Assembly (NCBI GenBank): GCA_944325905.1
Contig: CALVBY010000003.1
Location: forward strand, 1 to 50,545
Direction: 5' to 3'
DNA length: 50,545 nucleotides
Source of the DNA: Candidatus Gastranaerophilales bacterium
GTDB lineage: Bacteria; Cyanobacteriota; Vampirovibrionia; Gastranaerophilales; Gastranaerophilaceae
The notes under the pieces were generated by a model. The model was given only the letters and a program-made list of their open reading frames with translations. It was not told the origin of the DNA and made no database searches. The translations under genes were made by a program, and so were the position numbers. This document shows positions 13,081 to 48,014 of this stretch, one piece after another. Position 1 is the first letter of the stretch. Each line of letters begins with the position of its first letter.

Positions 13081-13106
13081 AAGAACCCTTAAGAGGGTTC
13101 TTTTTT
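13081..13106. terminator. Terminator between rplT and prepilin gene A
   Basis: AAGAACCC / GGGTTCTT stem with six-base loop and a T run on the plus strand. An A run precedes it, so it also serves the minus-strand prepilin gene. Confidence 0.85.
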
Positions 13107-13878
13107 ATTTGGATGAAATTTCTTGCAACATTTCATCAACTGTTTTACCTCCGGATTCTTTAAAACCCGAACCCTCCTTAAATTTTAAAATACCTTCGCT
13201 ATCTTTATACAATCTAAATGAGAATAAATCATAACCCCATTTATTTGGACCTTTCTTACCATTTATATCAACAAAGAATAACTGAGGAGAGATATTTACA
13301 GCTCCCCAACCATTGATTACAATAGTCCCATCAGCAAGTACCATTGTATAATTTTCATTCATCAAGTTATCTTTTTTCTGTGCAGACGGCATTCCAGATG
13401 CAATCTGGCTACCTCCATCATATGTATCACGACCCTCATATTCTGGTACACAACCGTTTGCATAAGGTTCTTTTTTACAAACTCTGGCAAATTTTAAGTT
13501 TTCACCAATAGCTTTTCCAAAAAGGCTACATTCGGTAAATATTCCACTATAGTCAGAAGGTACAGGCTTACCAGTAGAAACCAATACATATCCACCAATA
13601 CAAGTATTACCATCCTCAGCGTATTCTGAACAAACAGCAGGGCCATATGGATTAACATCCCAATAATAACATTTTGGAGGGACACCAAAATCGTACTCTG
13701 CCATCTGCATGGCCTGCCGCAACATAGCATATGTTTTTTTGAATTGAACCTTTAATGAATAATCCTGATATTTATGAATAAGTGTCGGTATTGTTAATGC
13801 GGCTACTATCCCGATTATTGCTATAGTTATCAATACCTCAGCTAAGGTAAATCCCTTTTTAAAACCATAAGTCACCAT
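13105..13878 (-). CDS. Type IV prepilin-like protein A
   Basis: This 257-residue protein has a short basic leader ending in Gly9, then FTLAEVLITIAIIGIVAA, the prepilin N-terminal methylation motif with Glu at +5 of the mature chain. A prepilin peptidase would cleave after Gly9 and the hydrophobic helix would pack in a pilus or pseudopilus core. The globular part has several Cys, a LADGTIVINGW segment and, near the C-terminus, VDINGKKGPN followed by G-x-D-x-F-x-F. The same two elements occur in prepilin B (47274-48014). The start at 13878 fits a perfect promoter with leaderless spacing. Upstream lies a nine-base C run inside a short ORF (see findings). Whether it is a major pilin, minor pilin or secretion pseudopilin cannot be told. 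Confidence 0.88.
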   Translation of the reverse strand: MVTYGFKKGFTLAEVLITIAIIGIVAALTIPTLIHKYQDYSLKVQFKKTYAMLRQAMQMAEYDFGVPPKCYYWDVNPYGPAVCSEYAEDGNTCIGGYVLVSTGKPVPSDYSGIFTECSLFGKAIGENLKFARVCKKEPYANGCVPEYEGRDTYDGGSQIASGMPSAQKKDNLMNENYTMVLADGTIVINGWGAVNISPQLFFVDINGKKGPNKWGYDLFSFRLYKDSEGILKFKEGSGFKESGGKTVDEMLQEISSK

Positions 13879-13931: not shown

Positions 13932-13976
13932 TTAAAGGAGTTGCCCCCCCCCGTTATGTCTCTCGTACCAAAACAT
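13932..13976 (-). other. Candidate short leader ORF spanning the nine-base homopolymer upstream of prepilin A
   Basis: An ATG at 13976 follows GGAGGAATAAATT, a strong ribosome binding site at the end of plsY. It reads 14 codons (MFWYERHNGGGQLL) and stops. The three Gly codons are the homopolymer. With one extra G the frame runs on without a stop into prepilin A, adding 33 residues. Translation is not demonstrated. Confidence 0.45.
13944..13952. repeat. Homopolymer of nine C (nine G on the gene strand), locus A
   Basis: Uninterrupted C run in an AT-rich genome. It lies 30 nt upstream of the -35 box of prepilin A. The only other run of this length I noticed in the window is at 47198-47206, also upstream of a prepilin gene. 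Confidence 0.9.
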
Positions 13977-47116: not shown

Positions 47117-47160
47117 CAAACTAGAAAAAATAATATTTAATAAAGAAGAAGGAGATTTAT

Positions 47161-47253
47161 ATGAAAAAGATTGATGCAAAAGCGGTTCAGATAGTCGCCC
47201 CCCCCCGGTGTGCTTCCCAATTTTGGCTTTCCACGACATTGACAAAATTTTAA
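47161..47253 (+). other. Candidate short leader ORF spanning the nine-base C run upstream of prepilin B
   Basis: An ATG at 47161 follows AAGGAGATTTAT, a strong ribosome binding site 45 nt after cysE. It reads 30 codons (starting MKKIDAKAVQIVAPPR) and stops. The run encodes the Pro codons. With one extra C the frame continues without a stop into prepilin B, adding 38 residues. Translation is not demonstrated. Confidence 0.45.
47198..47206. repeat. Homopolymer of nine C, locus B
   Basis: Uninterrupted run 32 nt upstream of the -35 box of prepilin B; mirror of the run at 13944-13952. Confidence 0.9.
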
Positions 47254-47267
47254 ACTGTAATTATAAT
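47239..47267 (+). promoter_or_regulatory. Perfect consensus promoter of prepilin B, leaderless spacing
   Basis: TTGACA (47239-47244), 17-nt spacer, TATAAT (47262-47267), then exactly 6 nt to the ATG at 47274. No Shine-Dalgarno. Confidence 0.85.
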
Positions 47268-47273
47268 TCTGAT

Positions 47274-48014
47274 ATGATGAATTATAGGTTTAGCCGTTTT
47301 TGGGCGTTTACACTTGCCGAAGTTTTGATTACCTTGGCTATAATTGGTATTGTTGCTGCTTTAACCATACCAAATTTAATTTTCAAATATCAGGAAAAAC
47401 AAACAGTATCAAGACTTACAAAAGCATATTCAACAATTAATAATGCTTATCAAAGGGCAAAAATTGACAATGGTGAACTCTCAACTTGGGGATTCGAAGG
47501 GAATTCAACTGGTTCAAGCTATTCTAACAACGCATACTTATTTTGGGAGAAAATAACTCCTTATCTTAAAATTGATGATAAAAAAACTTCACAAGATGAT
47601 GCAAATAGATTTGAATATAAAAGATACTTCTTAACAGGAGTCCCAAATAACAATAGTGTATCCACAATAGTACATCTTGCCGACGGAATGACTCTTTCCG
47701 GAGGTTGGATTTCGAACTATAAATGTAACAATAGAAATATTTGCGGTGATTTTCACATTGACATAAACGGAATAACCAACTTGCCAAATACTATTGGCAA
47801 AGATATTTTTTATTTTTATATCTATAAGGATGCAATCATACCTATGGGTACTAAAGATGATCGACAACACCCTATAGAACGGAGTTGTAACCTAAATAGC
47901 ACTATTACTAATAATGGCTACGGCTGCACAGCTTGGGTAATTTATAATAAAAATATGGATTACCTACGTTGCAACGATTTGTCATGGAATTACAAACACT
48001 CTTGCAATGAGTAA
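47274..48014 (+). CDS. Type IV prepilin-like protein B
   Basis: The 246-residue protein has a leader MMNYRFSRFWA, then FTLAEVLITLAIIGIVAA with Glu at +5 of the mature form. Ala rather than Gly precedes the cleavage site. The globular domain shares LADGMTLSGGW and DINGITNLPN followed by G-x-D-x-F-x-F with prepilin A, so they are one family. Six or more Cys occur near the C-terminus. I use 47274 because of the promoter; a GTG at 47208 is in frame but has no ribosome binding site. It follows cysE but has an independent promoter. Confidence 0.87.
   Translation: MMNYRFSRFWAFTLAEVLITLAIIGIVAALTIPNLIFKYQEKQTVSRLTKAYSTINNAYQRAKIDNGELSTWGFEGNSTGSSYSNNAYLFWEKITPYLKIDDKKTSQDDANRFEYKRYFLTGVPNNNSVSTIVHLADGMTLSGGWISNYKCNNRNICGDFHIDINGITNLPNTIGKDIFYFYIYKDAIIPMGTKDDRQHPIERSCNLNSTITNNGYGCTAWVIYNKNMDYLRCNDLSWNYKHSCNE

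Follow-up and report, generated by a model that had tools for sequence, protein, structure and literature searches.

The question raised by the 5' end of the gene named here prepilin B is what a run of nine C does within a translated frame lying upstream of a type IV-like pilin. The gene is located in a stretch of 50,545 nucleotides (nt) from a Candidatus Gastranaerophilales bacterium (contig CALVBY010000003.1, positions 1 to 50,545), referred to below as the window, which also contains a second locus of this kind, locus A. The answer that we favor, drawn from the sequence and its comparisons, is that positions 47161 to 47306 form a prepilin 5' end in which the run, one base out of frame as assembled, likely acts as a slipped-strand contingency switch of translation.

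All the elements of locus B lie on the forward strand. The run-containing frame begins with an ATG at 47161, preceded by a ribosome binding site (RBS) read from the sequence as AAGGAG (47149..47154). The homopolymer tract stands near the 5' end of this translated frame, 37 nt after the ATG, where the nine C that constitute the proposed switch occupy 47198..47206; the original prediction had placed ATG, AAGGAG and run in the same way, and they were confirmed base by base. As assembled, the frame (47161..47253) encodes a peptide of 30 amino acids (aa), the OFF reading, and ends at a TAA (47251-47253) located 44 nt 3' of the run. The prepilin frame, for its part, is open through the run and encodes the motif FTLAEVLIT from 47307, the position at which the mature pilin would begin, and one added C would merge the two frames. 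A short form of prepilin B (47274..48014) could also be initiated at an internal ATG, a predicted leaderless start, which is in frame with the prepilin and lies 6 nt 3' of the TATAAT of a predicted promoter, P2 (47239..47267; TTGACA-17-TATAAT, 12 of 12 consensus letters).

Locus A is found on the reverse strand. Its run, nine G on the gene strand (13944..13952), lies in a frame (13932..13976) that as assembled gives a 14-aa OFF peptide followed by a stop, and prepilin A has its own predicted P2 (13885..13913, 12 of 12) and a short form (13105..13878) whose internal ATG at 13878 is shared with the public protein P0121, 99% identical. In both loci the internal ATG is 6 nt past TATAAT, and the -35 element begins 32 nt after the run in B and 30 nt after it in A; these spacings, together with the gene-strand run base (C in B, G in A), were as originally described. 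Each of the two loci has one copy of the perfect string TTGACA-N17-TATAAT, which is found nowhere else in the window. The claim that two nine-base runs would rarely arise by chance was also borne out, with four G/C 8-mer matches (the two runs of nine) versus a mean of 0.11 and a maximum of 3 in 100 dinucleotide shuffles.

The arrangement was then followed through the whole genome (G000; 1,600,294 bases in 92 contigs), a run being defined as 8 or more G/C. There were 24 such runs, 20 of nine and 4 of ten, and a prepilin motif was found at 400 nt or less from 23 of them; among random positions, the same held for 176 of 2000 drawn in these loci and for 44 of 2000 drawn in the window. At the sole run without a nearby prepilin (L046), the contig begins at the run. 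One motif (L050) lies 267 nt off in a separate gene and the run frame reads elsewhere, which gives a strict count of 22. In relatives, 36 (G038), 92 (G022) and 115 (G009) runs of 8 or more were found, and they lay near prepilins in 26/30 cases in G038, 34/43 sampled in G022, 22/25 in G009 and 8/14 in G041 (398 kilobases). A broadened prepilin pattern was used for the counts (22/25, 16/22 and 26/30 in G009, G022 and G038, respectively); a stricter version gave 0/25, 15/22 and 25/30. The original prediction had envisaged a paired contingency system acting on pilins, with runs enriched near prepilins across the genome. The enrichment was found, and contingency control of prepilins is supported, but the system is not a pair.

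Two leader families were distinguished in this genome, one with G runs (AAC-G9-CAACTCCTTTAAGTAG and variants) and one with C runs (GCGGTTCAGATAGTCG-C9, as at B). The genome yielded 55 N_methyl matches, 48 of them over the cut-off; by position, 23 of the 55 were run-linked and 32 had no nearby run of 8 or more. The run-free loci had mostly short plain leaders, among the 30 matches laid out.

The phase of each run was scored from an ATG, GTG or TTG with an RBS-like motif and a frame open up to the run, which made 21 loci of this genome scorable (L041 and L050 have no such start). As assembled, 6 of them were in frame, 14 were one base short and 1 needed two bases, an uneven distribution over the frames (chi-square versus even, p 0.002) that agrees with the original prediction. 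In G022, all 28 loci with ten were one base short and 4 of the 5 with eleven were in frame. In G009, 18 of 21 loci were one base too long; all 12 with thirteen were one too long, and 3 of the 6 with twelve were in frame. The in-frame loci numbered 1/25 in G038 and 1/7 in G041, and a set of named relatives, mostly Candidatus Gastranaerophilales metagenome-assembled genomes, had 6/23 in frame and 15 one base short. Over five genomes, 15 of 108 loci were in frame, 93 were out of frame and 61 were one base short. The in-frame share was below one third (p 5e-6; 14/87 without near-copies, p 4e-4), values that are rough, as paralogues are not independent. In this genome, G022 and G009, the commonest run length was an OFF length, with ON one step away.

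The frame that a change of phase would join was found open almost throughout. From run to motif the prepilin frame was stop-free in 22/23 loci of this genome, 34/34 of G022, 16/17 of G009 (five loci with less than 24 nt between run and motif having been dropped), 25/26 of G038 and 6/8 of G041, so that it was open in 103 of the 108 loci of the five genomes, versus 8 of 216 for the two other frames. OFF frames reached a stop 9-17 nt past the run in 14 of 15 loci; the distance at locus B is 44 nt. The run-to-pilin distances shared one residue modulo 3 in 31 of 34 loci of G022 (range, 28-250 nt) and 19 of 22 of G009, a regularity that is hard to explain unless the joined frame is translated at times.

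A search of public proteins with the open frame of locus B, in which the best 120 of 914 matches were listed, gave as its top match P0001, a protein of 284 aa that begins MKKIDAKAVQIVAPPPVCFPIL, the in-frame reading, and is 100% identical to B over the mature pilin. It carries 38 residues ahead of the internal MM, the very extension that ten C had been predicted to give. The P0001 cluster comprises 13 sequences on 5 contigs, the longest of 112,226 bases; the contig that holds locus B (C3) stands between C2 (59,599) and C4 (47,514), and none of the 16 other complete run-linked pilins of this genome exceeds 80% identity to pilin B outside the N-terminus. From these contig sizes and the lack of a close paralogue, it would follow that another assembly holds pilin B. 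Similarly, P0129 is an in-frame form of L043, which is OFF here (99.6% identity), and its two leader substitutions indicate that it probably comes from another strain. Both protein records imply that tract length may differ within the species. The first two public searches listed 240 proteins, of which 45 had GGG or PPP in the leader. Near-identical flanks with unequal run lengths also occurred within one genome, as in L184 (12 and 10) and in L212, L219 and L214 (10, 12 and 13, respectively), and the near-identical L272 and L275 have 13 (out of frame) and 12 (in frame). A compensation of run length for a shorter flank, considered for L174 and L196, was dropped, as a run-adjacent base turned into G explains the pattern.

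These data bear on a first alternative, recoding, in which RNA polymerase or the ribosome would slip at the run and provide a fixed in-frame share from unchanged DNA. The strong bias toward one base short, with nearly one phase per genome, as in the G022 loci with ten, is what recoding would produce. A fixed -1 frameshift as the single mechanism fits this genome, G022 and G038, but it is ruled out by G009, since with the opposite bias there one fixed ribosomal shift cannot serve all genomes. Moreover, the in-frame forms P0001 and P0129 exist, and run lengths vary between near-copies. We consider recoding unlikely as the explanation, and transcript slippage may add a leak to a switch at the DNA level.

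Two predicted promoters flank the run at locus B. Upstream of the run-containing frame is P1 (47113..47141; TTGACA-17-TTTAAT, 11 of 12 consensus letters), and strings of the same type precede the C-run loci L036 and L042. Of 20 loci scanned, 15 had P1-like strings (9/12 or better) ahead of the run-containing frame, a count that has no shuffle baseline. A consensus promoter scan gave 5 promoter-like sites versus 5.6 in shuffles, and P1 of locus B was missing from them because the scan rule requires an A as the second letter of the -10. The P1 call at this locus is weak alone.

P2 was perfect in 16 of 23 loci of this genome and near-perfect in 3 more; 16 of these 19 had a start codon at the predicted +1 (ATG in 15, GTG in 1), and the aspartate codon within its -35 was GAC in 11 of 11 cases, although genes of the window prefer GAT 248 to 78. 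A P2-like promoter (10/12 or better) followed the run in 1/34 loci of G022, 1/22 of G009, 1/26 of G038, 0/8 of G041 and 4/23 of the named relatives. P2 is a run-independent second start that supplements the switch instead of forming its core. The promoter that had been counted as part of the architecture is present at A and B, but it does not depend on the run and is rare in the relatives examined. With P2 and its own start codon, the OFF state at B need not be silent, and a short-leader pilin may still be made.

At locus B, an inverted repeat (TATAATTC-N9-GAATTATA, 47262..47286, forward strand; about 0.005 in 200 letter shuffles) spans the internal start codon together with the -10 of P2 and is a possible operator. 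Inverted repeats with arms of 8-10 base pairs (e.g., CTATAATTC-N9-GAATTATAG) lie over the same two elements in L031, L033, L035, L037-L039, L043 and L049, and the repeat over P2 is a possible repressor or operator site. An RNA hairpin at P2 was not retained, as neither pairing nor covariation stood out clearly from the shuffles, of which 78 and 49 in 500 scored as high.

A second alternative builds on P2. According to it, the run would govern only a short leader peptide that affects P2 or transcript elongation, and translation of the working pilin would always begin at the internal ATG. The frequency of perfect and near-perfect P2, the start codons at its +1 and the uniform GAC within its -35 all speak for this, as does the leader-peptide pilus switch of Streptococcus gallolyticus, described in the available text of PMC3894217. 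It is countered by the scarcity of P2-like sequences after the runs of relatives, by a leader frame that is kept open into the pilin and by the site scan of the window, which gave no terminator-like site between the run and 47274, the nearest being at 47781. We regard this explanation as improbable.

With regard to the proteins, P0001 scored 18.8 bits against TIGR02532 (cut-off, 16.3), in accordance with an N-terminal cleavage/methylation motif, and the pilin of locus B scored 16.8 against PF07963, below the cut-off of 21.2. One match over the cut-off to the prepilin peptidase family PF01478 was found in this genome, and one match in each of four genomes. The structure model of P0001 (predicted local distance difference test, pLDDT, 86.3) showed one long N-terminal helix and a confidently modeled beta-rich head; a PDB fold search with it gave no match at E <= 0.001, the pilin 1ay2 appearing no higher than rank 38 (E 4.7). 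Among the 17 complete run-linked pilins of this genome, identity was 78% over the first 30 residues and 23% over the rest. The C-terminus of the L041 and L048 pilins (337-338 aa) presumably resembles a C-type-lectin-like domain, an impression gained by eye.

Leaders and pilins did not form constant pairs. The pilins of L058, P0013 and P0015 are 98.8 and 99.2% identical, yet their leaders differ; L033 and L045 match exactly over the 60 nt that follow the run and show no relationship ahead of it. Taking in also L032 with P0130, pilins that are 91-99% identical have quite different leaders, as if leaders and bodies had been exchanged. In L049 (254-nt leader), L066, L071, L169 and L171, in-frame repeat-like insertions, translated as recurring peptides (e.g., CHPELVSGS and ILKQVQDD), lengthen the prepilin leader. 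Of the 22 runs outside the window, 8 lie 250 nt or less from a contig end (C19, C28, C39, C22, C20, C6, C87 and C15), two of them exactly at the end; leaders common to several loci probably break the assembly at the runs.

In a third alternative, the run would serve above all as a recombination joint for the exchange of leaders and pilin bodies, and its effects on frame would be secondary. The L033/L045 pair, the near-identical pilins with different leaders and the runs close to contig ends are consistent with it. Exchange alone, however, leaves unexplained the open prepilin frame, the early out-of-frame stops and the lengths one step from ON, and as the main function of the run we think it improbable as well; exchange of leader and body at the run may act together with the switch. 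Finally, chance, assembly artefact or decaying genes, to which the 93 out-of-frame loci, the 32 N_methyl matches without a nearby run and the assembly breaks at several runs might point, can be set aside as highly improbable, given a prepilin association far above background, a prepilin frame open far more often than the other two, the same layout in several other genomes and an RBS-type motif at every scored start (demanded by the scoring rule).

Runs of nine or more were present in 52 of 60 genomes of a family sample (own included). Sampling across the class gave 11 to 111 runs in the 15 members of the family (own included) and mostly 0 to 10 in other families, the exceptions being some members of f3, f8 and f9 with 14 to 46. 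N_methyl matches numbered 86-135 in four run-rich relatives versus 3-33 in six genomes without a run of nine, a contrast that is indicative only, these six of the eight such genomes in the family sample having been picked by run count. The exact G-leader consensus of this genome was found in 2 of the 60 family genomes, our own (16) and G048 (1), so that the layout is shared and its letters are not. An exact scan of viral contigs for the C-leader gave no match. In G022, G009 and another genome, runs were also seen inside other long frames, away from prepilins (L180, L188, L194, L208 and L123); these are possible further switches on unassigned genes.

Several observations weigh against a contingency switch at locus B or limit its reach. 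The tie of runs to prepilins is not universal (8/32 runs, taken from the first places listed for 30 genomes). Since P2 has a start of its own, the run of locus B is predicted to be dispensable for pilin production. P0001 and P0129 are protein records, which could stem from a homopolymer error, from faulty gene calling or from the same sample having been assembled a second time. For locus A, the public proteins contained the short form (P0121) and no in-frame form, and for L034, in frame here, the public search returned its own in-frame form and no OFF form. The nine-G family of G038 keeps nine in every near-copy, which means that nine is not highly mutable there. In E27__bin3, the place of B (L055, 1960-2100) is occupied by a run-free prepilin, 54% identical, with a plain RBS-GTG start; the two genes downstream of that place are 93% identical and the upstream neighbor of B is missing, so the shared order holds on the downstream side only. 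In the 92-nt class of run-to-pilin leaders, third-position change was not in excess (0.31, 0.36 and 0.35 for the three codon positions), which suggests that openness and promoter letters are kept there, rather than peptide sequence.

With these points taken into account, we still hold the switch of translation to be the likely function of the run. It would gain or lose one base at replication, and transcripts from the predicted P1 would encode the 30-aa stub in the OFF state and, in the ON state, a prepilin whose leader is 49 aa long. Trimming of the ON product by the single prepilin peptidase would leave the same mature pilin, so the run would set whether, or how much, pilin is made and not the mature sequence. 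This genome would hold about two dozen such switches, on pilins with similar N-termini and highly different bodies, most of them OFF and one base from ON, which can be read as a bet-hedging pilin repertoire. At loci with P2, the short-leader form would be made without the run and the switch would likely be a boost rather than a strict on/off control; at loci and in relatives without P2, it would be strict. The comparisons point to a real system, present in several genomes of the family, with the structural features of homopolymer contingency loci and indirect evidence of alleles from the in-frame proteins; its switching would be reversible.

More tentatively, and with somewhat less than even confidence, the data can be read as a pilin lottery in gut bacteria of the Gastranaerophilales type. 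Each genome would have from two dozen to about a hundred separate prepilin genes, each with a G/C switch whose default state is OFF, with ON a single base away; leaders and bodies would be shuffled at the run, each cell would display a different small pilin set, and the present genome would add a repressible leaderless promoter for a run-independent short form.

The mechanism class, homopolymer contingency, is known. As for the claim that the system had not been described, the prepilin target, the host lineage and the double-start layout were not found in the open-licence papers searched. Phase variation in Gastranaerophilales was not found there; for Melainabacteria or Vampirovibrio, the available portions of that literature had phase variation only in work on flagellins and homopolymeric only in ribosomal-tree work. 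The accessible part of PMC5877343 names Gastranaerophilales pil genes and does not mention switching.

Should the switch reading be true, the homopolymer contingency repertoire of this uncultured gut lineage would rank among the larger ones known, and it would be directed almost wholly at a single class of surface fibre. The pilins that are ON in a given host could then be read from run lengths in metagenomes, and pilin choice, phage escape and immune sorting would become directly testable in bacteria that cannot be cultured. A further caution is that many prepilins may be missed or truncated by gene calling in this order.

Among known systems, Bordetella pertussis fim has a C-tract upstream of the fimbrial promoter, the length of which alters promoter spacing. 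Unlike it, the run here lies within an open frame and is kept in relatives without P2, and a promoter-spacing tract was rejected on the P2-like counts of G022, G009, G038 and G041 given above. In Neisseria, pilin varies through gene conversion from silent copies. The present pilins are similar in their conserved N-terminus and divergent body, in the silent copies and in the possible exchange of parts, whereas here the complete genes are numerous and separate, and each has a run to itself. Neisseria pilin variation is named in the available part of a review (PMC11868660). Neisseria meningitidis likewise has genome-wide simple-repeat switches, with 115 genes showing variation in its phase-variable repertoire according to the available text of PMC5084427, but they are spread over many functions and repeat types. 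The Pil1 locus of S. gallolyticus, as described in the same portion of PMC3894217, also has a pilus gene preceded by a short leader frame that contains a repeat (GCAGA), with most cells in the low state. There, a longer leader peptide opens a terminator hairpin ahead of a pilin with its own start and the pili are of the sortase type, while here no terminator hairpin was found and the leader frame enters a type IV-like pilin. There is also a likeness to Campylobacter jejuni, in which strain NCTC11168 has 29 polyG/polyC loci of seven or more (available part of PMC4965091), serving mixed surface-modifying genes (available part of PMC8437040). In both cases, G/C runs of about 9-11 lie within reading frames and set ON or OFF by frame, many in one small AT-rich genome; here, in an unrelated phylum, nearly all of them are on one gene class, the prepilins, and at one leader position.
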